Assembly: GCA_029858345.1 (NCBI GenBank)
Contig: JAOUFG010000014.1
Location: 1-38,444, forward strand
Origin: Phycisphaerae bacterium
GTDB taxonomy: Bacteria; Planctomycetota; Phycisphaerae; Sedimentisphaerales; Anaerohalosphaeraceae
Reading direction: 5' to 3'
Length of the DNA stretch: 38,444 nucleotides
Shown here: positions 6,461-21,124 of the stretch, in pieces
How positions within the stretch are numbered: the stretch's first letter is position 1
Layout: every line of letters begins with the position of its first letter
Program-made: the position numbers and the translations under genes
Notes under the pieces: generated by a model
What the model saw: only the letters and a program-made list of their open reading frames with translations
What the model was told of the DNA's origin: nothing
The model's database searches: none

Positions 6461-7864
6461 ATGAACAGAAGACATTTTTTGAAATCAACCACCGCAAGCA
6501 TGGGCCTGTTTTCGATTGTACCCAGCCATGTTTTGGGGCTAAACGGCAAGACGCCGCCCAGTGGAAAACTGAACATCGCCGGTGTTGGCGTGGGCGGCAT
6601 GGGCAAGGGTAATCTGCGTGCTATTTGCAAGCCGCTGAGTCAACGAAATGAGGAAAACTGGCCGGATGACAATTCTCAGAATATTGTTGCCCTTTGTGAT
6701 GTGGACTGGGCTCATGCTGATAGAACATTCAAGGAGTACCCGGAAGCGAAGCAATTTAAAGACTACCGTGTGATGCTGAAAGAGATGGGTGATAAAATTG
6801 ATGCGATTGTGGTTGCCACACCGGACCACACCCATGCCTGTGTTGCGATGGAGGCCATGCGTTATGGCAAGCACGTTTATGTTCAAAAGCCGTTAACGCA
6901 CTCTATTCATGAGGCCCGTGTCCTGACGGAAGCGGCTCGCAAGTATGGTGTTGTGACCCAAATGGGCAACCAGGGACACAGCAGCAATGATATCCGCCGG
7001 ATTTGTGAGTGGATTTGGGATGGTGCGATCGGTGATGTTCGCCAGGTTCATGCCTGGACAAACCGTCCGGTCTGGCCGCAGGGTCTGCCGCGGCCGACAG
7101 AAACCCCGCCGGTACCGGAAACATTGGACTGGGATTTGTGGCTCGGCCCGGCGCCACAGCGGCCGTATCATCCGGCCTATCTTCCCTGGAACTGGCGGGC
7201 ATGGGTGGATTTCGGCACCGGCGCGCTGGGCGATATGGCCTGTCATATCCTGGATCCGGTTTTCTGGGCATTGAAGCTGAAATATCCTATCAGCGCACAG
7301 GGCAGTTACGCGACGAATATTATTGAAAAATGGGAAAAGCCCGCAATCACTGAAACCTATCCGCTTGGTTCAATCATTCATTTTGAGTATCCCGTTCGGG
7401 AATCGATGCCTGCGGTAAAAATACATTGGTATGACGGGGGGTTGATGCCGGAACGTCCGGACGATCTTGAAGAAGGTCGCCGGATGGGGATAGACGGCAG
7501 CGGTGTTCTTTTTGTCGGGGACAAGGGGAAGCTGATGTGCGGGTGTTACGGAGAAAGCCCCCAGTTGATTCCTTATTCGAAGATGAAAGCGTACAAAAAA
7601 CCGGAAGAAACATTAGCTCGTGTCAAAACCAGCCATGAAATGGACTGGGTCAATGCGATTAAAGAAGGTCGTCAGCCCAGTTCAAATTTTGACTATGCCG
7701 GCCCGCTCACCGAGATGGTGCTGATGGGCAATCTGACTCTGTTCAAGCCGGGAGAAAAGCTTCTCTGGGATGGCGACAACATGAAAGTGACCAATTTTCC
7801 CGAATTAAATGAACATGTCAATCCGCCTTATCGGGAAGGGTGGCATCTGGAAAAAGATGCTTAA
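6461..7864 (+). CDS. Tat-exported Gfo/Idh/MocA oxidoreductase (QKP variant)
   Basis: This 467-residue protein opens MNRRHFLKSTTASMGLFS, a twin-arginine signal. The Rossmann loop follows (IAGVGVGGMGKGNLRA, about residues 39-54), then VALCDVDWAHADR and ATPDHTHACVAMEAM. The family's EKP motif reads VQKPLTH (about 147), with Gln in place of Glu. The C-terminal domain has GALGDMACHILDPVFWAL (about 252-269), with the usual Asp and His. This form is common among exported planctomycete members. Because Tat carries folded proteins, the nicotinamide cofactor was probably loaded before export and must be recycled in place. It follows the DUF1080 gene by 24 bases and precedes the fusion gene by 22, so they are almost surely co-transcribed. 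Its likely role is oxidation of a glycoside hydroxyl; this is inference. Confidence 0.9.
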   Translation: MNRRHFLKSTTASMGLFSIVPSHVLGLNGKTPPSGKLNIAGVGVGGMGKGNLRAICKPLSQRNEENWPDDNSQNIVALCDVDWAHADRTFKEYPEAKQFKDYRVMLKEMGDKIDAIVVATPDHTHACVAMEAMRYGKHVYVQKPLTHSIHEARVLTEAARKYGVVTQMGNQGHSSNDIRRICEWIWDGAIGDVRQVHAWTNRPVWPQGLPRPTETPPVPETLDWDLWLGPAPQRPYHPAYLPWNWRAWVDFGTGALGDMACHILDPVFWALKLKYPISAQGSYATNIIEKWEKPAITETYPLGSIIHFEYPVRESMPAVKIHWYDGGLMPERPDDLEEGRRMGIDGSGVLFVGDKGKLMCGCYGESPQLIPYSKMKAYKKPEETLARVKTSHEMDWVNAIKEGRQPSSNFDYAGPLTEMVLMGNLTLFKPGEKLLWDGDNMKVTNFPELNEHVNPPYREGWHLEKDA

Positions 7865-7886
7865 TGCGGATCTGAAAGGGAAACTC

Positions 7887-9305
7887 ATGAAGACGTATCT
7901 TTTTGTTTTATTTAGTGTTATTATCATGTCGACAATGGTTTCTGCTGAAAAAGATTGTTTAACGAAACATCCAACGCCGGAGACCTATGACGGCTGGCGG
8001 CTGGGAGTGCAGACGTGGACCTTTAAAGAGTTTACCCTGTTCGAGGCAATTGATAAGACCCGTTCGCTTGGACTGAACTGGATACAGGCATTTCCGGGTC
8101 AGCAGGTATCCGATGTAATCACCACGAAGTTCGGGCCCGGCCTTACCCCGGAGGAAAAAAAGCAAGTCAAGGAAAAGCTTCAAGACGCGGGAATTCAGTT
8201 TTTTGCGTTCGGTGTTGTCGGAATTGCGAAAGATGAAGCAAAGGCGAGAGAACTGTTTGAGTTTGCAAAGGAAATGGGTATTCCAATGCTTGCTTCAGAG
8301 CCCAAAGAAGACCAGTATGACCTGCTTGATAAATTATGTCAGGAATACAAGATTAAGCTGGCAATCCACAACCATCCCAAACCGAGTCATTACTGGAACC
8401 CGGATACCGTGCTGGAAATGTGTGCCGGCCGCAGCACGTGGATCGGTGCCTGTGTGGATGTCGGACACTGGGTTCGCAGCGGTTTGGATCCGGTTGAATG
8501 CCTCAAAAAGCTCCGGGGTCGGATTCACGATGTGCATATCAAGGAAATTGACGACGGTCATGATGTCATCTGGGGAACCGGACAAGGCCGGATGAAGGGG
8601 ATTCTTGACCAACTGCATCGTCAGAATTATCAGGGAACATTCGCGATTGAGTATGAATACAACTGGGACAACAATGTCCCGGAGATTCGTCAATCGATTG
8701 CCTATTTCAATTCAATTGCGTCCACATTGAACCCCACCGGTTGGAAGGATCTTGTCGCTTCCGATTTTTCAAATGTGGATACTCCCCAAAACAACTGGAG
8801 CTTTGACGAAGGCGTATTAGTATTGAATCCGATGAAGAAGAACGCCGATCTGTGGACGAAAGATCAATACGGTAACTTCATCCTGGATTTTGAATTTAAG
8901 CTTGATAAAAGTGCCAACAGTGGTATTTTTATTCGTACACAGGATCATAACTGGCTGCCCTGGATCGAAGTACAGGTTGAAGACTCCTATGGAAAGCCCG
9001 TTAGTAATCATATTTGCGGTGGAATCTTTGACATCAAAGAGCCGACAGTGAATGCGGTGCTGCCTGCGGGTCAATGGAACCGAATGACCATCATGGCGGA
9101 TAATTCCAGCGTGTGTGTTGTTTTGAACAATGAACCGGTTCTCAATATCGACCTGAATGACTGGACCGAAGCCCAAAAAAATCCGGACGGCACTAAGAAT
9201 AAGTTTAATGTGGCGTATAAGGATTTGCCTCGCAAAGGTTATATCGGCCTGCAGGACCACGGGTTCAAGGTGTGGTACCGCAATATCAGAATCAAAGAGC
9301 TCTAA
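7887..9305 (+). CDS. Secreted fusion of sugar-isomerase-like TIM barrel and DUF1080 domain
   Basis: The 472 residues from the ATG at 7887 begin with a signal peptide (MKTYLFVLFSVIIMSTMVSA), which decides this start over in-frame starts at 7809 and 7857 that would bury it. Residues about 38-280 form a TIM barrel of the sugar isomerase/epimerase type: LGVQTWTFKEFTLFEAI, KLAIHNHPKPSHYW, GACVDVGHWVRSG, IHDVHIKEID, FAIEYEYNWD. Residues about 290-472 form a DUF1080 domain: FILDFEFKLDKSANSGIFI, WIEVQVEDSYGKP, YIGLQDHGFKVWYRNIRI. Both families are implicated in processing 3-keto glycosides, so the fusion may perform two successive steps, or elimination with product binding, outside the cytoplasm. AAAGGGA precedes the start. 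It is flanked by Tat-exported oxidoreductases. Confidence 0.88.
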   Translation: MKTYLFVLFSVIIMSTMVSAEKDCLTKHPTPETYDGWRLGVQTWTFKEFTLFEAIDKTRSLGLNWIQAFPGQQVSDVITTKFGPGLTPEEKKQVKEKLQDAGIQFFAFGVVGIAKDEAKARELFEFAKEMGIPMLASEPKEDQYDLLDKLCQEYKIKLAIHNHPKPSHYWNPDTVLEMCAGRSTWIGACVDVGHWVRSGLDPVECLKKLRGRIHDVHIKEIDDGHDVIWGTGQGRMKGILDQLHRQNYQGTFAIEYEYNWDNNVPEIRQSIAYFNSIASTLNPTGWKDLVASDFSNVDTPQNNWSFDEGVLVLNPMKKNADLWTKDQYGNFILDFEFKLDKSANSGIFIRTQDHNWLPWIEVQVEDSYGKPVSNHICGGIFDIKEPTVNAVLPAGQWNRMTIMADNSSVCVVLNNEPVLNIDLNDWTEAQKNPDGTKNKFNVAYKDLPRKGYIGLQDHGFKVWYRNIRIKEL

Positions 9306-9333
9306 GGGATAAAAGAAAAGGATATTGATTGTT

Positions 9334-10695
9334 ATGGTTTATCAATTAAACAGACGACAGTTCCTCCGGACATCAACAGCGATCGGGGCCGGCTTATATG
9401 TCAGCGGCAAAGCGCTTGGGGCCGATGCGAAACACAAAGACGTGATCAATGTAGCACTGCTGGGCGCCGGGGCGCAGGGCCAGGTCCTGATGGATGCCAT
9501 CTTGAAAAAGATGGACCCAGGCATTCGCTTTGTAGCGGTGTGTGATATCTGGGAAGCAGGCAATCTCCGCAAGGTTTCCCGACGACTGAAATCATGGGAG
9601 AAAATTGGCCATAAAGGAACCCCCTATACGGATTACAGGGAAATGCTGGATACGGAAAAAGATCTGGACGCGGTCATTGTCGCTACGCCGGATTTCTGGC
9701 ATTCGGAACATACCGTTGCCTGTCTTGAAAAGGGCCTGCATGTCTATTGCGAAAAAGAGATGAGCAATACGCTCGAAGGCGCCCGGAAAATGGTTGAGGC
9801 CCGAAATGCCAGCGGTAAACTGCTGCAGATCGGCCACCAGCGACGCAGTAACCCCCGTTACCGGCATTGCTACGATAAACTCATTCAGGATGCCGGACTG
9901 ATCGGACGCATTACCACGATTAACGGTCAGTGGAACCGCAGCAAAGCGTCGTGTGAAGACCGGGCTTTGAGCGAAAAGGAAACGCCCATCGACGAAGCCA
10001 CCCTGAACAAGTACGGCTTTAAGAATATGCATCAGTTCCTCAATTGGCGCTGGTTTAAGGGACTTGGCGGCGGCCCGATTGTCGACCTTGGCAGCCACCA
10101 GATCGATATTTACAGTTGGTTCCTCGGTTGTAACCCCAAGAGTGTCATTGCCAGCGGTGGCGTCGATTACTGGACCGGTCACGAATGGTACGACACGGTG
10201 ATGGCGGTTTATGAATATGAAACCGCTGCCGGCCCCGTTCGTGCGTTTTACCAGACCGGAACCACCAACAGCTCCCGTGGTTATTTTGAAAGCTTTATGG
10301 GCGATCAGGGCACCCTGACAATCTCCGAAGACCCTAAAGTTGGAGGGGTTTACAGAGAGGGGTGGATTTTAGAGGAGCAATGGGACCAGTGGGTACAGGG
10401 TGGATATGTGCTCAAACCGAAGGGAGCGCCGGTTTTTAAGGGTGACGACGATGCAGAGGCCGTTTTGGATCCTCGTGCGACCGTTCCACCGGATCTTTAT
10501 ACGCTTCCGGTGACAATGAATGTACCGTATCACCAGCCGCACTTGATGAATTTCTTTAACACCATTCGGGGTACCGAAACGTTGAACTGCCCGGCGGAAA
10601 TCGGATATGAAAGCGCCGTCAGCGTCTTAAGAGTCAACGAGGCGGTTGCCCAAAATCGCCGCCTTGAATTCAAGCCGGAAGACTTCCATATTTAG
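9334..10695 (+). CDS. Tat-exported Gfo/Idh/MocA oxidoreductase (EKE variant)
   Basis: This 453-residue protein starts MVYQLNRRQFLRTSTAIGAG, a twin-arginine signal. The nucleotide loop is VALLGAGAQGQVLMDA (about residues 39-54). The usual EKP motif reads CEKEMSNTLEGA (about 146), so the Pro is replaced by Glu, and a conserved GGGPIVDLGSHQIDIYSW (about 248-265) carries the catalytic-region Asp and His. A TTG at 9325 lies only two bases from AAGGA, so the ATG at 9334 is the better start. It differs from the other exported oxidoreductase of this locus in that key motif, suggesting a different hydroxyl, substrate or direction. The gene is 28 bases after the fusion gene and 25 before the cytochrome. 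Family membership is firm; reaction unknown. Confidence 0.88.
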   Translation: MVYQLNRRQFLRTSTAIGAGLYVSGKALGADAKHKDVINVALLGAGAQGQVLMDAILKKMDPGIRFVAVCDIWEAGNLRKVSRRLKSWEKIGHKGTPYTDYREMLDTEKDLDAVIVATPDFWHSEHTVACLEKGLHVYCEKEMSNTLEGARKMVEARNASGKLLQIGHQRRSNPRYRHCYDKLIQDAGLIGRITTINGQWNRSKASCEDRALSEKETPIDEATLNKYGFKNMHQFLNWRWFKGLGGGPIVDLGSHQIDIYSWFLGCNPKSVIASGGVDYWTGHEWYDTVMAVYEYETAAGPVRAFYQTGTTNSSRGYFESFMGDQGTLTISEDPKVGGVYREGWILEEQWDQWVQGGYVLKPKGAPVFKGDDDAEAVLDPRATVPPDLYTLPVTMNVPYHQPHLMNFFNTIRGTETLNCPAEIGYESAVSVLRVNEAVAQNRRLEFKPEDFHI

Positions 10696-10720: not shown

Positions 10721-12577
10721 GTGAAGACATTTAGATTATTGACGGCGTTACTATTGGCGGTTTGTGTTTATCCGGTCAGGGCCGAAGTTGGACAGTTGGT
10801 CGGCCAGGGCAGCGACGGTAATCGGAGTACCCCGGTCCATCAGATTGAACTGTACGACGAAGAGGGGAATCAAATACGTCCTTTCGATAAGGATCCGAAG
10901 CCGTTTTCGACCCGAATCACCTGCGGCCGGTGTCATGAGTACGGAACCATCGCTTCGGGCTGGCACTTCAACGGGTATGAAAGTGAAGCATTCAATGACG
11001 AAGGAGAATTGGTTAAAATCGACTGGGGCCGTCCCGGCCAGCCGTGGGTGCTGACCGACAGCAAAACACGAACACAGATTCCGCTTTCCGGCCGCAAATG
11101 GCCCGGTACGTTTTCGCCGGACGAACTGAGAATTTCATCGTGGAAATTTCTTGAAATGATTTCCAGCCATTTCCCCGGCGGCAGCTATGGTGAAATAAAA
11201 GCCGAGCAGCCCTACGAGGAGAGGCGGCAGGAAATCAGCGGCCTCTACGAAGTCAACTGCCTGGCGTGCCATAATGCCGATCCGCATCAGGACCAGAATA
11301 TGGCGGCTTTACAGGCGGCCCGTCAGAACTATCGCTGGATTCCTGCGGCCTCGAGCCGCATGGCGGATGTCAGCGGCGATACGCTGGATCTGACAATGTT
11401 TTATGACCCGGAAGTCAATATAAACGGACCGACGATGACCTATCGTAAAGATCTGTTTGATAGCGAAGACACGGTCTTTTTTGACATCACCGGTAAACCG
11501 TCGAATGAACGCTGCTATTTCTGCCATTCCAATCAAAACCTGTCCGTTAGCGAGGACAGGGAATGGACGCGGGACGAAGATGTGCATTTGAAATCGGGCT
11601 TAAAGTGTGTCGATTGCCATCGTAATGGCGACAACCACATGATCACCCGCGGCATCGAAACCGAAGGCGACGGCAAAACGCTGACCTGCGAAGGATGCCA
11701 TTTGCCGGACCCTGCCGACACGCCCCAATCCGGTCGTCTCGGCGCTCCCGAACCCAAACATCGCGGCATCCCGACGATTCATTTTGAAAAATTGACCTGC
11801 ACCGCCTGCCATTCCGGAACCTGGCCCGCCGAAGAGGCGGCGCGCTGGAAGACCGCACGCATGCATGAAACCGGGCTGCATGGTCCGCATACGCCGTATG
11901 TTCCCCAGCCCCATGTGTACGCACCGGTGCTGATGAAAGGCGCCGGCGGCAAGATCGGTCCCTATAAACTATTCTGGCCGGCCTACTGGGCCGCCCAGCG
12001 CGATGATGCAATGACGCCGATTCCGCCCGAACAGGTGCTTGAAAAAGCCGGCGATGTTTTGGGAGCGTATATCGAAAAGACCGATGACTGGAAGCCGCTG
12101 ACAGAGCAGCAGATTGCCGGTGTTTTGGAAAGACTAAGCACCGGTGGCGAAAGGGGCGTTTATATCGCTGGTGGCAAGAGCTATCGGTTGGATGCCGAAG
12201 GAAACGTGACAAGTTGTGACGATGAAGCTGCACAGCCGTATGCCTGGCCGATGGCTCATGATGTGCGTCCGGCCGAGCAGTCGCTGGGGGTTCGCATGTG
12301 CAAAGACTGCCATACGACCGATTCGCCGTTCTTTTTCGGCACGGTCGAGATGGATACGCCGGTCAAAGCGGACAATGGCGTCAGAACAATGGAAATGATT
12401 CAACTGCAGGGCATCGACCGGTTGTATATGTGGGTCTTCAACGCGTCGTTTGTTTTCCGTCCGTTTTTGAAGATTGTTGCGTTCGCATCCTGTGGTCTGA
12501 TTGTGCTGGTTTTACTGGCCTATGGTGTTCGGGCTGTTGCGGCCGTTTCTAATGCTTGTACTGAGGAGCCGGAATAA
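10721..12577 (+). CDS. Seven-haem c-type cytochrome, membrane-anchored
   Basis: The 618 residues from the GTG at 10721 are chosen because a signal peptide (about residues 1-21, ending PVRA) starts there and the upstream gene has just ended. Seven CxxCH haem sites are present: CGRCH (68), CLACH (180), CYFCH (265), CVDCH (296), CEGCH (323), CTACH (360) and CKDCH (527). One transmembrane helix near the C-terminus (about 582-605) would tether the haem domain outside the cytoplasm. Many extra His residues (including HETGLHGPH around 382-390) could be distal ligands. The stop codon abuts the start of the next, four-helix membrane gene, so the two are probably a complex. Such cytochromes move electrons between the quinone pool and extracytoplasmic partners. 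The partner here is unknown; the sugar oxidoreductases next door are candidates. Confidence 0.9.
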   Translation: MKTFRLLTALLLAVCVYPVRAEVGQLVGQGSDGNRSTPVHQIELYDEEGNQIRPFDKDPKPFSTRITCGRCHEYGTIASGWHFNGYESEAFNDEGELVKIDWGRPGQPWVLTDSKTRTQIPLSGRKWPGTFSPDELRISSWKFLEMISSHFPGGSYGEIKAEQPYEERRQEISGLYEVNCLACHNADPHQDQNMAALQAARQNYRWIPAASSRMADVSGDTLDLTMFYDPEVNINGPTMTYRKDLFDSEDTVFFDITGKPSNERCYFCHSNQNLSVSEDREWTRDEDVHLKSGLKCVDCHRNGDNHMITRGIETEGDGKTLTCEGCHLPDPADTPQSGRLGAPEPKHRGIPTIHFEKLTCTACHSGTWPAEEAARWKTARMHETGLHGPHTPYVPQPHVYAPVLMKGAGGKIGPYKLFWPAYWAAQRDDAMTPIPPEQVLEKAGDVLGAYIEKTDDWKPLTEQQIAGVLERLSTGGERGVYIAGGKSYRLDAEGNVTSCDDEAAQPYAWPMAHDVRPAEQSLGVRMCKDCHTTDSPFFFGTVEMDTPVKADNGVRTMEMIQLQGIDRLYMWVFNASFVFRPFLKIVAFASCGLIVLVLLAYGVRAVAAVSNACTEEPE

Positions 12578-13165
12578 ATGTTTCAATGGATTTCAATCAT
12601 CGGATTTAGTGTTGTTTTTGCGGGCCTTTTTTTGCATCACCTGATATTTCCGTGCGGCTACAAACCGCGGTTTACAGCCGGTTCGCTGATTCGTAAAAAA
12701 GTGCATCTGCTGACGCTGCTGTTTCCGGAACAAAAACTGAATTGGCCGACGAAATTCAGAAAGCTTGTTTTCGTGCTGGGGTTGTTCAGTTTTTGCGTAC
12801 TGCTGGCGACCGGCTTTGGCCCGCTGTTATGCGGTTGCCGACTGCATGGATATCTCTTAATGATCCACGCGACCTTTGCCCCGGTCTTCATCGGATGTGC
12901 GGCGATTGTGGCGATTTTGGGTGCGGGACAATATTGTTTCAATAAAAAGGATGCCGGTACCAAGGCGGGCTTTTGGGTACTTCTGGCGCTGTCACTGCCG
13001 GTTACACTGACAATGGTGTTGAGTATGTTTCCCCTGTTTGGGACCCACGGCCAGGAAATCCTGCTCGACGCCCACCGCTGGAGTGCCCTGATATTTGCCT
13101 TGATTGCGATTATTGAACTCTATATGCTGATACGGATGGAAGTTCTTAAGGACACGGAAAGATAA
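12578..13165 (+). CDS. Four-helix membrane protein, likely cytochrome b-type partner
   Basis: This 195-residue protein has four predicted membrane helices (about residues 5-24, 62-82, 95-117, 131-152, with a further hydrophobic stretch 166-186 that may make five). Histidines lie in or near the helices: His20, His21, His90, His97 and His166 are the best haem-ligand candidates. I know no exact family name; the pattern resembles small haem-b quinone-oxidising subunits that pair with multihaem cytochromes. Its ATG directly follows the TAA of the cytochrome gene, which argues for coupled translation and a fixed ratio. If the pair works as a quinone:cytochrome module, it could draw electrons from, or deliver them to, the exported redox enzymes of this locus. 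That step is inference. Confidence 0.75.
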   Translation: MFQWISIIGFSVVFAGLFLHHLIFPCGYKPRFTAGSLIRKKVHLLTLLFPEQKLNWPTKFRKLVFVLGLFSFCVLLATGFGPLLCGCRLHGYLLMIHATFAPVFIGCAAIVAILGAGQYCFNKKDAGTKAGFWVLLALSLPVTLTMVLSMFPLFGTHGQEILLDAHRWSALIFALIAIIELYMLIRMEVLKDTER

Positions 13166-13191: not shown

Positions 13192-14556
13192 ATGGCAAAC
13201 GGAACATTACCAAACTATCTCAGTGCGGCAAGTGCGAATCCTATAGAAGCACGCGGCCCGTGGTACAAAAATACTGCTCCAGCTTATGCGGGCATTTTTC
13301 TGTCCGTACCGTTTATGGCGGGTATGGCAGGGGCATTGGCTTACGGCAGTATTCTGGCTACTGCGATTGGACTGATTATGGGCGCGTTTTTCTGCTTAGT
13401 CATTTACTATGTTCCGGCAAAACTGGGCATGAAGACAGGGATGCCGTTATATGTGGTAGCATCATCTACTTTTGGTTCGGCTGGAGGAGTTGCCATTCCC
13501 GGCTTATTAATGGGCATCGTGCAGATATTCTGGCATGCTGTTTTTACAACATCCGCGGCAGGTTTCTTTATGGAAGCGATTGGTAAAGTTCCGGCAGAAA
13601 ATGTTGCGCTGTATTGGATTGTTTGTGCTGTCTGGGGACTGGCGATGGCATTTGTGGGAGCAGTTGGTATTGGACTGCTGGCCAAGCTTTCTTCATGGTT
13701 GCCGATCTTTCCTCTTGTGTTTATTGCTCTGGCGGCTATTTCAAATAAGAGCGGACTGGGCAATTTCAGCACTGCCGTTGCTCCGGCAGAAGGTGTTGTT
13801 GGCGTTGCGATGGCGTTGGCAATGTTTGCCGCATTGCAGTCGACAGCGGGCTTTTTTGCATCAGCGGGCGTTGCCGGCACGGATTTTGGGATGAACAGCC
13901 GAGATGAAAATGATGTTGCTTTGGGCGGCTTCTTTGGTATTACTGTTGCTGCGATCGTTGCCGGTCTTTTGGCAATTCTGGCAATCGCCGGTGCTGCTGG
14001 GAAAAATCCTGAAATTGCCTCGAAGATTTCCAACGGCGATGCGTTTGGTGCATTCTTTGCTGCGATTGCTGAAACAGGTGGATTGGCAAAAGTATCAGCT
14101 TGGGTGTTTGTGATCGCCTGTATTTGCCCGACGGGTTTTTGTGCGTTTCTGGCATCGAATGCTTTTGCAACCATGTTGCCAAAATTACCGCGTGTCCCAA
14201 TGACTTTGATTGCTGGTTTGATTGGTGTGATTCTTGCTGCAACAGGCATTGCGAATAATCTCATCGGCTTCTTCCTCATGGTGGGTGCCGCATTCGGGCC
14301 GATTGCCGGTGTGATGCTGGCCGATTATGTTCGTAGCGGTTGGAAAGGTCCCCGCAGAGGCATCAATTGGGCGGGCTATATTGCATGGGCCTTTGGTCTG
14401 GTGCTCGGCTTGCTTGGTGTCATTACCAAGGGCAAATTTGGCTACGGCTTGGAAGCCTTGATCCCGATGGTTTCAGCGGCGGCGGCTTACTTTGTGCTGG
14501 CTGGATTCGGCTTAGAACCGGAAACCATTTCACTTGAAGAAAAGGCGGTGGCCTAA
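13192..14556 (+). CDS. NCS1-like (purine-cytosine permease family) transporter
   Basis: This 454-residue hydrophobic protein has about twelve membrane helices. The N-terminal ARGPWYKNTAPAYAGIF and the later GVMLADYVRSG followed by INWAGYIAWAFG match the pattern of NCS1 permeases, which couple import of nucleobases, hydantoins, allantoin or related small solutes to sodium or proton flow. GGAGAATGACCTA precedes the ATG. It is 26 bases downstream of the cytochrome partner and thus in the same transcription unit as the glycoside genes. A nucleobase-type importer is an odd choice for sugars. It may import an aglycone released by the secreted enzymes (for example a base cut from a nucleoside), or this branch may have changed substrate. 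Family call is good, substrate open. Confidence 0.78.
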   Translation: MANGTLPNYLSAASANPIEARGPWYKNTAPAYAGIFLSVPFMAGMAGALAYGSILATAIGLIMGAFFCLVIYYVPAKLGMKTGMPLYVVASSTFGSAGGVAIPGLLMGIVQIFWHAVFTTSAAGFFMEAIGKVPAENVALYWIVCAVWGLAMAFVGAVGIGLLAKLSSWLPIFPLVFIALAAISNKSGLGNFSTAVAPAEGVVGVAMALAMFAALQSTAGFFASAGVAGTDFGMNSRDENDVALGGFFGITVAAIVAGLLAILAIAGAAGKNPEIASKISNGDAFGAFFAAIAETGGLAKVSAWVFVIACICPTGFCAFLASNAFATMLPKLPRVPMTLIAGLIGVILAATGIANNLIGFFLMVGAAFGPIAGVMLADYVRSGWKGPRRGINWAGYIAWAFGLVLGLLGVITKGKFGYGLEALIPMVSAAAAYFVLAGFGLEPETISLEEKAVA

Positions 14557-14660: not shown

Positions 14661-15356
14661 ATGAAAAAGATTATGATATTAGTATTGGTGGCTGCGATGA
14701 TGGCGGTTATGAGCGGCTGTTCTAAGAAAGTGCCTGACGAAAGCCCTTCTGGTGGCGGTGAAGCTGGAAGGGCGCCGATTTCAATTGAACTGCCCAAGCC
14801 GCTGTTCGAGGGAACCCCGGAAAACCTGACCGGAATTGAGAATCTGGAACCGGACACCAAAAAGCCGCGGCCACCGTTTCTGGCTCCGGCAGGTGTGAAG
14901 AACCTGGCCCTGAATAAAACCGTCACCAGTTCGGAGATGGATCCGATCAATGGGACGCTGGACATGATTGTCGATGGTGACAAAGAAGCCACCGAAGGCA
15001 GTGTCGTGGAACTGGGTCCGTTCGAGCAATGGGTGGTGGTTGATCTGGGAGCCGAGTATGAATTATACGCGATCGTTTTCTGGCATTTCCATAGGCAGCC
15101 GCGCGTGTACAAGGATGTTGTCGTTCAGCTTTCCAGCGATCCGGAATTCATTACGGATGTAACAACGTTGTTCAACAACGATATGGACAACTCATTGGGC
15201 CTGGGCGTCGGTACCGATATGCACTATATCGACAAAGCCGAAGGAAAACTCGTCGATGCCAAGGGAACTAAAGCACGCTATGTGAAACTGTGGAGCCAGG
15301 GCAACAACCAGAACGATTACAGCCATTACATCGAGGTCGAAGTCTTTGGCCAATAG
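14661..15356 (+). CDS. Lipoprotein with discoidin/F5-8C-like galactose-binding domain
   Basis: The 231 residues from the ATG at 14661 (GGAGA ten bases upstream) include a lipoprotein signal with lipobox MSGC at about 17-20, then a Pro/Gly-rich linker. About residues 80-231 resemble a discoidin (F5/8 type C) beta-sandwich: NLALNKTVTSSEMDP, IVDGDKEATEG, QWVVVDLGAEYELYAIVFW, VQLSSDPEF, ARYVKLWSQGNNQNDYSHY, EVEVFG. Such domains bind glycans or act as accessory modules. It comes 104 bases after the permease and is probably the last gene of the locus, perhaps tethering glycoside substrate at the cell surface. No catalytic residues are apparent. The function in substrate capture is inferred from fold and position. 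Confidence 0.75.
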   Translation: MKKIMILVLVAAMMAVMSGCSKKVPDESPSGGGEAGRAPISIELPKPLFEGTPENLTGIENLEPDTKKPRPPFLAPAGVKNLALNKTVTSSEMDPINGTLDMIVDGDKEATEGSVVELGPFEQWVVVDLGAEYELYAIVFWHFHRQPRVYKDVVVQLSSDPEFITDVTTLFNNDMDNSLGLGVGTDMHYIDKAEGKLVDAKGTKARYVKLWSQGNNQNDYSHYIEVEVFGQ

Positions 15357-15585: not shown

Positions 15586-17076
15586 CTATCCATTTTTCTT
15601 TTTGGCCGCGGTTTTGGGGCTTCGTTTGGCGGCTGTTTTCTTTCGCGCCTTGGTTGTTTCAGATTCCTTGGTATCAGCAGTGTCGGCTTTCGGTGTTGAT
15701 TTTTTTCCTTTGGCGGCGGGTTTCTTTTCTTCGACGTCCTTTATCGTTGCTTTTTCAAGAATCTTTTCGATGCATTTCTCTTCACGAATCTGCAATGCAA
15801 ACTGCGTCAGCGAGCCGTCGCGGGCCAGTTCTTCCCGCATCTTTTCGGGTCGGCGGCCGCGCATCGCCGCGACATAAGCGATATGCCCGTTAATCTCTTC
15901 TTCGCTGACTTCAATCTCAAATTGATCCGCGAGTTTGTCCATCACGAAATACAGTTTAAGCTGCTCGGCGGCCTGCTCTTCCGAACTGGCCCGCAGCTGA
16001 TCCATCTGCTCGTCAATCTGTTCCTTGGCCATGCCCTGCATCAGCATATTTGAATACTGCCGCTGCAGCAGCGACAGCGACTGCTCAGCCACGACGGCTT
16101 CCGGGAGGTCGAACTCGATGTTGTCCTGCAGATAGCTGTAAACCTGCTCGCTCATGGCGGCTTTGGCCTGTCGTTCGGCCTGCTGGCTCATCTGGTCGCG
16201 GATGCCGTCTTTCAGCTCATCGGCGTCTGCAACCCCGAAGCGTTTGAAGAAGTCTTCGTTCAGCTCGGCAGGTTCCATTTGTTTGACTTCCTTGACCTCG
16301 ATGGTGACATCGACCTTCTTGCCGCGATATTGTTCATTGAAGTAGGTTGCCGGGACATCCACGGTGGTCTTCTTTTCGTCGCCGTGTTTGGCACCGGTCA
16401 GCAGTTTGCCAAGTCCATCGACCGGGATGCCGGCGACAAAGCCGTTTTCCCGAATGGCGATCTCGGTGTTCTCACGTTTATCGTGGTCGGCCGAACCTTC
16501 GGTCACCAGAACCACATCCGCAATCACCTGATCGTCAATCGCCGCGCCGCCTTTTTCCTTAGGAGCCCAGATGCCGGCCCGTTTTTGCTGGGCGGCCACT
16601 TCCTCATCGACCCGGTCATCGGTGACTTCAATTTTGGGCTTTTCGATGGTGATGCCTTCCAGTTCCGGCAGGTCGAATTCCGGACGAACTTCGACCTCAA
16701 ACTCAAACTTCAGCGGACCCTCGTCCGGCAGTTCGATCTTTTCATGGTCAATATCCGGGTCCCGCAAAGAGTTGATTTCGTTTTCCTTGATGGCTTCCTC
16801 GCTGGCAGTGGCCATCAGCTCCAGCTTGACCTGGTTGGAGATATCCGTGCCAAACCGTTTTTCCAGCAAGCGGATCGGGGCGCGGCCTTTGCGAAAGCCC
16901 GGCAGAACCGCATCGCGGCGGAGTTCCTTGTATTTTTCATCCAGTTTTTCATGGATCACCTCAGCGGGAATCTCGATCTCGACCTTTTTCTTGCAGGGGC
17001 CGGCATCGCTGACGGTGATGATGTTCTTGCTTTGTTCTTTGGTTTCTTCGGTTGTTTGTGTGTCTTTTTCAGCCAT
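15586..17076 (-). CDS. tig: Trigger factor, ribosome-bound folding chaperone
   Basis: This 496-residue protein has the N-terminal ribosome-binding domain with the signature LPGFRKGRAP (about residues 58-67). A diverged FKBP-type domain follows (about 175-265, including ENGFVAGIPVDGLGKLLTGA), then the long helical C-terminal domain (about 270-450). The last 50 or so residues are an extra tail full of Lys, Ala and Thr (KKTAAKRSPKTAAKKKNG), longer than usual (ordinary length about 430) and like a histone H1 tail. Trigger factor binds ribosomal protein L23 and shields nascent chains. AGGAG lies eight bases before the ATG. It stands alone with its own terminator, downstream of tRNA-Gly. The tail could add RNA or ribosome affinity, which is my inference. 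Confidence 0.95.
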   Translation of the reverse strand: MAEKDTQTTEETKEQSKNIITVSDAGPCKKKVEIEIPAEVIHEKLDEKYKELRRDAVLPGFRKGRAPIRLLEKRFGTDISNQVKLELMATASEEAIKENEINSLRDPDIDHEKIELPDEGPLKFEFEVEVRPEFDLPELEGITIEKPKIEVTDDRVDEEVAAQQKRAGIWAPKEKGGAAIDDQVIADVVLVTEGSADHDKRENTEIAIRENGFVAGIPVDGLGKLLTGAKHGDEKKTTVDVPATYFNEQYRGKKVDVTIEVKEVKQMEPAELNEDFFKRFGVADADELKDGIRDQMSQQAERQAKAAMSEQVYSYLQDNIEFDLPEAVVAEQSLSLLQRQYSNMLMQGMAKEQIDEQMDQLRASSEEQAAEQLKLYFVMDKLADQFEIEVSEEEINGHIAYVAAMRGRRPEKMREELARDGSLTQFALQIREEKCIEKILEKATIKDVEEKKPAAKGKKSTPKADTADTKESETTKARKKTAAKRSPKTAAKKKNG

Positions 17077-17586: not shown

Positions 17587-18873
17587 ATGGTTGACACATT
17601 TTTCAAGTTACATACCCGCCGGACTACGCTGCGGACCGAGATCATCGCCGGATTCACCACGTTTTTGACGATGGCGTACATCATCTTCGTCAATCCCAAC
17701 ATTCTCGCCGAGGCGGGCATGGATAAATCCGCCCTGATTGCGGTGACGTGCCTGGTAACAGCGATCGCGACCATTGCCACGGGACTGCTGGCCAATGCTC
17801 CGATTGCGATGGCGCCGGGGATGGGGCTCAATGCTTTTTTCGCCTATACGCTCGTACTGACCAGGCAGGTCAGTTGGCAGACGGCGCTGGGCGTGGTCTT
17901 TCTGTCGGGTTTATTCTTTCTGCTGCTGACACTGGCCGGGCTTCGCCGCAAGTTGGTCGAGGCCATCCCCAAATCACTGGTCGCGGCGATTTCCGTCGGC
18001 ATCGGGCTGTTCATTACCTTTATCGGCCTGCAGAATTTGGGCATCATCGTCGATCACCCCGTCACCTTGGTCACCAGTGCGCACCTGACGCCGACGATCC
18101 TGTTCGGTCTGGCCGGGTTGGCGGTGATGATCATTCTCGAAATGAAACGCATACCGGGAGCGCTGTTGATTGGCATCGCATTCTCTACCGTGCTGGCGGC
18201 GTTGTTCGGCGAGATACCGCGGCCGGAGAAAATCATACAGTTCAATCTGAACATTTCGCCGACCCTGTTCAAAATGGATTTAGTTGGTGCGCTGAAGTGG
18301 AGCATGTTCTCCAGCATCTTTACGCTGATGTTTATCGACATGTTCGACAGCATCGGCACGCTGCTGGCTGTCGCTCCGCCGGCGGGCCTGGTGGATGAGA
18401 AAGGAAACATTAAAGAACTGGACCGGTTATTGATGATCGATGCGGGCGCGACGATGCTGGGTGCCGTTTGCGGCACTTCAACGACGACATCGTATATCGA
18501 ATCCGCCGCGGGCATCGAGCAGGGCGGCCGAACGGGATTGACCTCAGTCGTGACGGGTGTGCTGTTTTTATTTTCTCTGCTGTTTGTGCCGCTGGTGGGA
18601 ATTGTGCCCGGCCATGCAACCGCTCCGGCGCTGATAATGGTGGGCCTGTTCATGATGAAGCAGATTCGCGAGATTGATTTTTCGGATATGCAGCACGGGC
18701 TGCCGGCGTTTATCATCATGGTGATGATTGCCCTGAGCTATTCGATCAGTACCGGTCTGGCGTTTGGATTTATCGCGTACGTGCTGATCCAAATCCTGTC
18801 CGGCAAACTCTTCGAGATCAAGCTGACGATGTGGATTATTGCGATTCTGTCGGTATTATATTTTTATGTGTAA
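17587..18873 (+). CDS. NCS2-family (AzgA-like) purine permease
   Basis: The 428 residues from the ATG at 17587 (GGGAG about 11 bases upstream) match the AzgA-type branch of NCS2 permeases that import adenine, guanine or hypoxanthine with protons. Family marks are RTEIIAGFTTFLTMAYIIFV (about 17-36), ANAPIAMAPGMGLNAFFAY (about 70-88), and FIDMFDSIGTLLAVA with the later GAVCGTSTTTSYIESAAGI, carrying the acidic and polar substrate-site residues. About twelve or more helices are predicted, as in the family. The gene stands alone on the plus strand between tRNA-Gly and a PEBP lipoprotein. It may supply purines, and it is the second nucleobase-type permease in the window. Upstream in-frame starts at 17518 and 17548 would only add a hydrophilic extension. 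Confidence 0.92.
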   Translation: MVDTFFKLHTRRTTLRTEIIAGFTTFLTMAYIIFVNPNILAEAGMDKSALIAVTCLVTAIATIATGLLANAPIAMAPGMGLNAFFAYTLVLTRQVSWQTALGVVFLSGLFFLLLTLAGLRRKLVEAIPKSLVAAISVGIGLFITFIGLQNLGIIVDHPVTLVTSAHLTPTILFGLAGLAVMIILEMKRIPGALLIGIAFSTVLAALFGEIPRPEKIIQFNLNISPTLFKMDLVGALKWSMFSSIFTLMFIDMFDSIGTLLAVAPPAGLVDEKGNIKELDRLLMIDAGATMLGAVCGTSTTTSYIESAAGIEQGGRTGLTSVVTGVLFLFSLLFVPLVGIVPGHATAPALIMVGLFMMKQIREIDFSDMQHGLPAFIIMVMIALSYSISTGLAFGFIAYVLIQILSGKLFEIKLTMWIIAILSVLYFYV

Positions 18874-18882
18874 CAAAAGCGC

Positions 18883-18982
18883 GAGAGCGCAAGCTCTCCG
18901 ATTGCATGACCGTGTGCGAAACATAACAACACAGCGCCTGCTGTCGCCCACAGGGTCACGTAATCGGGCGGCTTGCGCCGCC
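18883..18982. repeat. Two small GC-rich hairpins between the permease and PEBP genes
   Basis: A 6-bp stem with a GCAA tetraloop (18883-18898) and a second 6-bp stem with loop TTGC (18967-18982) lie in the 137-base gap. Neither is followed by a clear T run, so they look more like dispersed palindromic repeats than terminators. Confidence 0.4.
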
Positions 18983-19010
18983 TCGCTGTTGTTTATAGGA
19001 GATTGCTTAT

Positions 19011-19562: not shown

Positions 19563-20417
19563 TTAGTCGTAAGCGATCGAAGTCTGTGCGGCGCCGAACA
19601 TGCGGACGAGGCTGTTGTCGAGATGAACGATTAATCCCTCGACCGGATCAACGCCCCGGCAGAACCCGCTGAATCGCTGTCCGTCGCATTCCAGCGTAAT
19701 GTGCCGTCCGAGCATCCCGGACAGTTCCAGCCAGCGGTCGACGACAGGGGACTGTCGATTGTTGATTGACGATGGACGATTTGCCTTATCGAGCCATTCT
19801 TCAAGCTTAGCAAGCAATTCACAGATAAGACCAGTGCGGTCAATGCCCTGACTCCCTTCAATCGCCAAACTGGTGGCGGGTAGATTCAGATTGTATTCTT
19901 GAAATGTTTCGCGAGTCTGATTGCAGTTGATGCCGATGCCTACGACAAAACACGGCTTTGATTTGATATTTCGTTTTTCGACGAGGATCCCGGCGGCTTT
20001 TTGGTTGCGGATCAGGATGTCATTGGGCCACTTGATCCGACAGGGCAGGTTGCAAAAAGCGCTGATGGCCTCTGCTGTTGCCACCGCTGCGGCCAGCGTC
20101 AGTAATTCGGCTTCGATATTGGTTTTTGTCAACAGGACCGAGCACAGGATGCTTTGGCCCGGCTCGCTGAACCACATCCGCCCGCGTCGGCCGCGGCCCT
20201 TGGTTTGACTCTCGGTCAGTACGCAGAGCCCGTCGTTATCCGCATTGGATGCATACTCCCAGGCAATGTCATTCGTCGATGCCGTGGACTGAAACACCAC
20301 AACCTTGCTCCCAATCCGGGCATCCTTTCGAGGAATTACAACCTTGCTCCCAATCCGGGCATCCTTTCGAGGAATTAAAGGGGTCAGACACCTTTTTTTG
20401 TTTACTTTTGATGTCAT
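19563..20417 (-). CDS. birA: Biotin-protein ligase (class I, no repressor domain)
   Basis: This 284-residue enzyme makes biotinyl-AMP and transfers biotin to carboxylase carrier proteins. The catalytic core is clear: STASTNDIAWEY (about 44-55), the adenylate loop TKGRGRRGRMW (about 72-82), CRIKWPNDILI and VVGIGINCNQ, then a small C-terminal SH3-like domain. There is no N-terminal DNA-binding domain, so it is not a repressor. The first 40 residues are odd: a 13-residue unit PRKDARIGSKVVI is present twice, and the stretch before it (KVNKKRCLTPLIP) is translated from a GGGTCAGACACCT repeat. The ATG overlaps the stop of the RAYT gene (ATGA). The native start seems to have been replaced by repeat sequence; I see no alternative good start. 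Confidence 0.93.
   Translation of the reverse strand: MTSKVNKKRCLTPLIPRKDARIGSKVVIPRKDARIGSKVVVFQSTASTNDIAWEYASNADNDGLCVLTESQTKGRGRRGRMWFSEPGQSILCSVLLTKTNIEAELLTLAAAVATAEAISAFCNLPCRIKWPNDILIRNQKAAGILVEKRNIKSKPCFVVGIGINCNQTRETFQEYNLNLPATSLAIEGSQGIDRTGLICELLAKLEEWLDKANRPSSINNRQSPVVDRWLELSGMLGRHITLECDGQRFSGFCRGVDPVEGLIVHLDNSLVRMFGAAQTSIAYD
20300..20377. repeat. birA: Perfect 39-bp tandem duplication inside birA
   Basis: Two identical 39-bp units (20300-20338 and 20339-20377) lie inside the birA 5' coding end. The unit length is a multiple of three, so the reading frame is kept and 13 residues are repeated. Complete identity suggests a recent event. Confidence 0.95.
20381..20393 (+). repeat. RAYT-associated repeat copy 1
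   Basis: GGGTCAGACACCT, flanked by A-rich and T-rich sequence. It lies within the birA 5' coding end and is the downstream flank of the RAYT gene. The same motif occurs inverted at 21131-21143 and direct at 21306-21318. Confidence 0.75.
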
Positions 20418-21088
20418 CCGGCTGTTGTTTCTTTTTTCGGTCTGCCGCGGGGGCGTAAGGACGATTCCAGCGACAATTCTTTGGCTGCTTTAATCATCCA
20501 GTCATCCTTGCCGAACGGGCGGCCGCGTTGGATGCAGGTTTCGATTTCGTCCAGCGGCATATCGGCGACTTTATCCGCCTGCGATTTCCACAGTCGCGGC
20601 AGGTGGATCGGTCCGTCGGCCAGCGTCAGCGGTTTTTCTTCGCCGCAGCGGATGGCCAAACTGCTCCACGGCCAGTCGGCGCTGCGCGTGACCAGTCCCG
20701 CACGCAGCGGATTGCTCTCGACGTACCGCATCAGCGTCTGGTAGTACAACCCGTCCTGTACCGGAAAGCTTTTATACCGGCCCTGGTAAAGATGCCCGAT
20801 GCCGACGGTGTTATGTGCGGCGTGCCAGCGGTGCGAGTGAGTGACCGTCACCCATTTCATAAAATGTGACAAGTCGCCATCTTGCCGCGGCCACAGTACC
20901 AAATGCCAGTGCGTGCCCATGATGCAGTAGCCGCAAAGACGCATGTCGAAACGTGCCAATCCTTCAGCCAGAATTGCTTCAAACGCCTCAAAATCGCCAC
21001 GCTTCTTAAAAATACGCAAGCGACCGTTCGCACGGTTCAAGGCATGATAAACAAGATTTCCCTTCGCAATCCGCTTTTGTCGAGGCAT
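20414..21088 (-). CDS. REP-associated tyrosine transposase (RAYT), Y1/HUH family
   Basis: This 224-residue protein is a single-domain Y1 transposase of the IS200-related RAYT group, which nicks single-stranded DNA at REP-type palindromes. The HUH metal motif is GTHWHLVLW (about 58-66), preceded by YHALNRANGR and followed by HLYQGRYKSFPV and YVESNPLRAGLV, the segment expected to carry the catalytic Tyr. A basic tail ends RPRGRPKKE. The ATG at 21088 sits right at the predicted transcription start, so the message may be leaderless; a TTG at 21097 would precede transcription. It is flanked by three copies of GGGTCAGACACCT. Unusually its TGA overlaps the birA ATG, so it shares a transcript with an essential gene. 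RAYTs are usually single-copy and domesticated, and not self-mobile. Confidence 0.9.
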   Translation of the reverse strand: MPRQKRIAKGNLVYHALNRANGRLRIFKKRGDFEAFEAILAEGLARFDMRLCGYCIMGTHWHLVLWPRQDGDLSHFMKWVTVTHSHRWHAAHNTVGIGHLYQGRYKSFPVQDGLYYQTLMRYVESNPLRAGLVTRSADWPWSSLAIRCGEEKPLTLADGPIHLPRLWKSQADKVADMPLDEIETCIQRGRPFGKDDWMIKAAKELSLESSLRPRGRPKKETTAG

Positions 21089-21096
21089 AAGCGACA

Positions 21097-21124
21097 ATTA
21101 TAATGCCAAAAGCCGAAATGTCAA
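21097..21124 (-). promoter_or_regulatory. Consensus sigma-70 promoter of RAYT-birA
   Basis: On the minus strand TTGACA (21124-21119) and TATAAT (21102-21097) are both perfect, with a 16-base spacer. The start of transcription would fall near 21090, one to three bases before the RAYT ATG. The promoter touches repeat copy 2, so it could have come with the repeat unit. Confidence 0.75.

Follow-up and report, generated by a model that had tools for sequence, protein, structure and literature searches.

A heptahaem cytochrome c and a b-type membrane partner beside an exported Gfo/Idh/MocA enzyme suggest a route for sugar electrons outside the cytoplasm in a Phycisphaerae bacterium

Results

A cytochrome pair within a sugar operon

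The window, meaning the whole 38,444-nucleotide stretch of Phycisphaerae DNA analysed here, is contig 96 of a 3.0-Mb genome with a completeness of 99.5%. Between 3264 and 15356 its main genes all lie on the + strand with short gaps, and the run is closed by a long opposite-strand ORF at 15586–17076. The operon opens with genes for a Gfo/Idh/MocA protein, a TIM barrel, a 3-keto-disaccharide hydrolase (PF06439) and a BT_2158-like exported Gfo/Idh/MocA protein (6461–7864), and continues with a TIM-barrel and 3-keto-disaccharide hydrolase fusion (7809–9305); the segment occupied by the last two (6461–9305) matches NF058561 at 597 bits (cut-off 750), PF06439 at 2.6e-40 and PF01261 at 2.1e-19. These are followed by GfoB (9331–10695; PF01408 at 3.7e-17, PF22725 and PF02894), a Tat-exported Gfo/Idh/MocA protein of the CEKEMSN type that we propose as the partner enzyme; by CYC (10721–12577; PF14522 at 2.2e-9, PF14537 at 2.3e-8), an exported heptahaem c-type cytochrome of 618 residues with a C-terminal anchor; and by cytb (12578–13165), a five-helix membrane protein and divergent relative of FdnI and cytochrome b561 with one predicted haem b. 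An NCS1-type permease (13192–14556; PF02133 at 8.8e-10, TIGR00800 at 1.6e-14), whose place is taken in relatives by either an NCS1 or an MFS permease, and an F5/8 type C (discoidin) lipoprotein (14661–15356; PF00754 at 3.7e-7, lipobox MSGC assigned by eye) complete the series.

Elsewhere in the window, an ORF at 19563–20417 carries a tandem N-terminal repeat, IPRKDARIGSKVV, and overlaps by a few bases a second ORF, 20414–21097, which by eye resembles a REP-associated transposase.

CYC is a predicted seven-haem electron-transfer protein

The start of CYC was placed at GTG 10721, an in-frame TTG at 10646 being a mechanical ORF start only. The N-terminus, VKTFRLLTALLLAVCVYPVRA, appears signal-like by eye (signal peptide approximately 10721–10783), and seven CxxCH motifs follow on the + strand: CGRCH (residues 68–72; 10922–10936), CLACH (180–184; 11258–11272), CYFCH (265–269; 11513–11527), CVDCH (296–300; 11606–11620), CEGCH (323–327; 11687–11701), CTACH (360–364; 11798–11812) and CKDCH (527–531; 12299–12313). 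A hydrophobic C-terminal membrane anchor (12458–12562) begins at an invariant Arg580 and is modelled as a helix spanning residues 580–614. An earlier note on this DNA had described just such a protein, with seven motifs, a signal and a C-terminal anchor, and each of these features was confirmed. Scanning the genome collection with the single CYC sequence returned zero relatives, and an alignment-based scan was needed to recover them; it found 365, the nearest named ones being Sedimentisphaerales/Phycisphaerae MAGs of the Planctomycetota. Seven CxxCH motifs in one 618-residue frame, together with 365 relatives, are therefore not a product of chance.

Conservation of histidines points to the ligation of these haems. 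In an alignment of 20 divergent CYC relatives, no histidines are invariant apart from those in the seven CxxCH motifs and seven more, and the latter (H40, H82, H289, H306, H347, H354 and H513) are each kept in 96 of 96 relatives; the next-best histidine outside the motifs, H382, is kept in 93 of 96. The simplest reading is that CYC carries seven bis-His haems with one candidate distal histidine for each. With an invariant candidate for every haem there would be no open catalytic haem, and CYC is thus predicted to be an electron-transfer protein. An AlphaFold2 model of CYC reached a pLDDT of 79.6 and a pTM of 0.78. Foldseek searches of the PDB with this model and with the model of a fused relative (described below) gave no significant match, FdnI included, and the fold searches therefore neither support nor refute the assignments made here.

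cytb is a divergent relative of FdnI

The earlier note took the partner of CYC for a four-helix protein, whereas we count five hydrophobic segments. By itself, cytb returned nothing of note in domain searches and no match to PF01292 even at an E-value of 10. Its family is more informative: the relatives L041 and L048 pass PF01292 with 53.7 and 60.5 bits (cut-off 30.1; E = 2.9e-14 and 2.4e-16), and members of the family come near the formate dehydrogenase gamma model TIGR01583 with 88.4 and 104.5 bits (cut-off 115.85). The best match of the family profile among PDB chains is E. coli FdnI (1kqf_C; E = 0.0069, weak by itself), and a profile–profile comparison (hhalign) with FdnI/FdoI gave an E-value of 6.6e-6.

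Only two membrane histidines of cytb are conserved, H97 (67 of 68; codon 12866–12868, + strand) and H166 (68 of 68; codon 13073–13075, + strand). From the profile alignment and their conservation they are predicted haem-b ligands equivalent to FdnI His57 and His155, which we take to be the ligands of the periplasm-nearer haem in the 1kqf structure. The claim that the partner is b-type-like, with several membrane histidines, thus holds for this one FdnI-aligned pair; the remaining membrane histidines are not conserved. Val64 and Glu180 occupy the positions of FdnI His18 and His169. As a test of a second b haem, ligated by His20 and His180, in part of the family, we counted the two residues across relatives: both occur in 21, only one of them in 23 and 15, and neither in 9, with no co-variation. 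A K/R-rich loop (residues 27–60) lies on the opposite face, which would place H97 and H166 near the outer face, on the CYC side. Thus, cytb is expected to carry one haem b, close to CYC.

CYC and cytb form one unit

The cytochrome stop codon (TAA 12575–12577) directly abuts the start codon of cytb (ATG 12578), as the earlier note had stated. This arrangement was followed in 98 non-redundant loci, the majority from Planctomycetota and the others from Verrucomicrobiota, Omnitrophota, KSB1 and one Caldithrix MAG. In this set, of which 80 were picked as the best-scoring CYC relatives so that proportions apply to its nearer relatives, cytb lies directly downstream of CYC in 78 of the 91 loci with enough flank and is fused to it in another 8 (86 of 91 together). 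A further fusion was seen by eye in L045. In the fused relatives the c part is N-terminal and the b part C-terminal, and the CYC anchor opens the membrane domain as its first helix; a model of the fused relative L084 (pLDDT 77.0, pTM 0.77) likewise has five membrane helices, beginning with the anchor. These observations support the view that CYC and cytb make up an electron-transfer unit combining c-type and b-type haems. The seven bis-His haems predicted in the c part, the single one predicted in the b part and the natural fusions all agree with the c-type/b-type pairing put forward in the earlier note.

The pair is tied to an EKE-type dehydrogenase

GfoB matches PF01408 at 63.6 bits (cut-off 24). 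Its family keeps the GxGxxG motif and D74, an acidic residue typical of NAD binding (74 of 74), the RRxF twin-arginine signal (73 of 74), the CEKEMSN motif (73 of 74) and the catalytic residues K144, D254 and H258 (73–74 of 74). Where GfoB has CEKEMSN, EKP is found in 48 of the 60 other Gfo proteins from the neighbourhoods whose motif could be read, and GfoB scores only 78.7 bits against the BT_2158 model (cut-off 750).

GfoB lies immediately 5′ of CYC, reading in the same direction, in 76 of 86 loci, the proportion again describing the closer part of the family. The earlier note had named a pair found mainly in unrelated loci as something that would speak against its reading, and this is not what we found. 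A divergent CYC branch (28–38% identity; L037, L045, L049 and L050) has an FGE-sulfatase-domain protein directly upstream in place of GfoB. We also sampled 392 genomes of the phylum irrespective of linkage, counting a match as strong at E-values up to 1e-60. Strong CYC matches occur in 19 genomes and strong GfoB matches in 17; 14 genomes have both, 5 only CYC, 3 only GfoB and 370 neither (Fisher p = 4e-19, a guide only, as kinship is ignored). When the host's own family is left out, CYC is found in 8 of 11 genomes with GfoB (p = 2e-11, with the same limit from kinship). Both genes are carried even in G127 and G145, where they lie far apart or on separate contigs, and the module is found in the single-contig genomes G287 and G127, of the same family and order as the host. 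Co-occurrence of the pair with the EKE-type oxidoreductase, which the earlier note had named as a check, is thus borne out by both neighbourhood and genome counts, and they support the view that the EKE-type GfoB is the enzyme that belongs with CYC.

Recurring neighbours include ApbE

Among 49 loci with at least 7 kb of flank on each side, three further genes recur within 10 kb of CYC: the F5/8 lipoprotein (38 of 49), an eight-helix Agl23-like glycosyltransferase that scores above the TIGR03663 cut-off (37 of 49) and ApbE (39 of 49). The last two are a single gene in several loci. In most module relatives the glycosyltransferase adjoins ApbE or is fused to it, as at L031 2531–5071 and L034 15688–18144; in L113 the module ApbE (18022–19004) is broken into two ORFs, by a frameshift or a sequencing error. 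The host genome has a fused PMT–ApbE gene away from the window, with one piece at an end of contig 163 and the other at an end of contig 59 (L057 and L058).

The presence of ApbE in the module is a hint of a flavin between nicotinamide and haem. Most stand-alone module ApbE proteins are without a signal peptide and look cytoplasmic. The flavinylation motif [DS]GA[ST]x[AST] gave scattered single matches in module proteins, none in conserved columns, and the lack of a usual-motif acceptor in the neighbourhood counts against a flavin step.

Quinone and haem-c supply in the host

Members of the Sedimentisphaerales are reported to be strictly fermentative, with the respiratory chain missing (PMC11266412). 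The host genome encodes MenA and MenG/UbiE (contig 64, L141 5013–7263) and a Ccm-type haem-c assembly cluster, which makes a naphthoquinone and c-haem assembly plausible. MenB and MqnA/D were looked for in the host genome and not found, leaving quinone synthesis incomplete on paper; the quinone may derive from a scavenged precursor or be made by an unrecognised route. At the start of the Ccm cluster lies a cytochrome with 11 CxxCH motifs (contig 114, L143 1184–2857), which may be a further redox partner.

Discussion

Our results favour a model in which CYC and cytb form a membrane-bound conduit, resembling a cytochrome c–b quinone oxidoreductase, that serves GfoB and delivers electrons from glycosides into the naphthoquinone pool; we put the probability of this reading at about one half. 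The haem motifs, candidate ligands, export signals, topology, fusion and linkage to GfoB and ApbE are supported by the sequences. GfoB would transfer hydride to its bound NAD from a sugar or glycoside outside the cytoplasm, in chemistry that is probably of the C3 type because 3-keto-disaccharide hydrolases adjoin. NAD(P)H donates single electrons to haem poorly; the electrons would next pass, probably via a flavin, to the seven bis-His haems of CYC, then to the haem b that cytb would carry at its periplasmic face, and on to the naphthoquinone pool. We infer that GfoB touches CYC, that a flavin lies between them, that cytb has a quinone site and that electrons flow in the direction described. 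In FdnI, the second haem pair (His18/His169) lies beside the quinone site, and its loss in cytb weakens the case for a quinone site there. On our reading, sugar electrons are most likely passed to quinone by CYC–cytb. A broader proposal, which we advance tentatively and think may well not hold in full, is that these proteins represent a new class of respiratory sugar dehydrogenase carrying out quinone-linked glycoside oxidation, in which the NADH bound to the Tat-exported nicotinamide enzyme GfoB would be re-oxidised in place by CYC and cytb, possibly via a covalent flavin installed by ApbE.

The known systems closest to the pair are CbcL, MtrH and MtoC of Geobacter and Fe(II) oxidisers, which act as quinol oxidase or quinone reductase and with which we compared CYC–cytb by description. 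In CbcL, a multihaem c domain precedes a HydC/FdnI-like membrane b domain, and exchange with the quinone pool has been proposed (PMC6295460). CYC–cytb likewise has an exported multihaem c part and an FdnI-like membrane b part, N- and C-terminal respectively when fused. It differs in that its seven haems have their own invariant ligand pattern, in being mostly encoded by two genes, in its single conserved b-haem pair, where CbcL has two b haems, and in its tie to a sugar dehydrogenase rather than to metal respiration. Because the two-b-haem feature described for CbcL is missing, we do not class the pair with CbcL. Similarly, cytb resembles FdnI/FdoI of the b561 superfamily (PF01292) in its profile match and in keeping the His57/His155 pair and Tyr171, but it is without equivalents of His18/His169, has an extra N-terminal helix and is paired with a haem-c protein instead of an iron–sulfur subunit. 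The view that the pair fits no named complex stands as far as nitrite, sulfite and tetrathionate families are concerned, all far under their cut-offs, and needs qualifying for its resemblance to CbcL/FdnI-like c–b quinone oxidoreductases.

This resemblance also underlies the best placed of the alternatives, an outward path like that of CbcL or MtoC, in which quinol would be oxidised at cytb and electrons would leave through CYC to other acceptors in the periplasm or outside the cell, with the sugar genes merely giving reducing power. The order of domains in the fused relatives is that of CbcL (PMC6295460), and the 11-CxxCH protein beside the Ccm genes gives the host another multihaem cytochrome. 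We nevertheless consider an outward path unlikely, since a general export route would not need CYC to be bound to one dehydrogenase family across phyla, and no genes for an outer-membrane conduit were seen in CYC neighbourhoods. The linkage evidence is identical for our preferred reading and for a reverse flow, in which quinol would reduce cytb, then CYC and finally GfoB, which would reduce a 3-keto sugar in the envelope. The operon does encode 3-keto-disaccharide hydrolases whose products need reduction somewhere, but this could be done by the other Gfo enzymes of the operon, and a fermenter would gain little from spending quinol on sugar. Reverse flow thus seems improbable to us and ranks second among the alternatives.

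GfoB might instead be a closed-cycle enzyme with tightly held NAD, like glucose-fructose oxidoreductase, with CYC–cytb and ApbE serving another flavoprotein and the linkage reflecting shared regulation only. ApbE and the glycosyltransferase recur as well, and the divergent branch has the FGE-domain protein directly upstream of CYC, not GfoB, both of which would fit such an arrangement. However, the position of GfoB immediately 5′ of CYC in 76 of 86 loci and its genome co-occurrence (14 of 17, including the two genomes with the genes far apart) favour a functional partner, and we regard the closed cycle as rather improbable, placing it third. GfoB does resemble glucose-fructose oxidoreductase and BT_2158-type glycoside 3-dehydrogenases in fold family, NAD motif and Tat signal, and differs from them in CEKEMSN, the low BT_2158 model score and the genetic coupling to a cytochrome. 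Finally, that CYC is itself a catalytic multihaem reductase of the nitrite, sulfite, tetrathionate or selenite type is very improbable: the matches to octahaem tetrathionate reductase (TIGR04315), NrfB and ExtN models are weak and far under the cut-offs (30.8 against 375, 26.9 against 166.6 and 25.8 against 200 bits), and these scores, together with a ligation pattern that offers all seven haems a candidate distal histidine, led us to reject a catalytic nitrite, tetrathionate or selenite role.

With regard to our preferred reading, in which CYC–cytb carries electrons from GfoB to quinone, a functional parallel is found in LacABC of Caulobacter, a flavin (GMC) dehydrogenase that includes a cytochrome c component. 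The CYC, cytb and GfoB module resembles it in envelope-side sugar oxidation, membrane attachment and the PF06439 hydrolases alongside, and the host differs in having Gfo/Idh/MocA enzymes instead of a GMC oxidoreductase. LacABC works as a lactose 3-dehydrogenase in the periplasm, bound to the membrane, and its genes lie with those of DUF1080 (PF06439) 3-ketoglycoside hydrolases (PMC9007349). We do not file the GfoB system under LacABC because the expected GMC-type oxidoreductase is absent, a search of the host genome returning no match. In the literature searched, where coverage of subscription journals is limited, we found no account of the CYC–cytb–GfoB module, and the flavinylation literature, for the terms searched, held no mention of the arrangement.

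Exported Gfo/Idh/MocA enzymes recur in the sugar-degrading operons of Planctomycetota and their relatives, and dismutation is the only obvious route by which their envelope-bound nicotinamide could be re-oxidised. A dedicated c–b conduit, kept with one Gfo/Idh/MocA enzyme across several phyla, would answer this question. A multihaem c/b pair linked to a nicotinamide-dependent sugar dehydrogenase is surprising in organisms reported to be strict fermenters. In summary, the position of CYC–cytb beside GfoB suggests a so far undescribed route for sugar electrons outside the cytoplasm. If this is true, the Sedimentisphaerales would gain a quinone-linked route, and their description as strict fermenters would have to be qualified.
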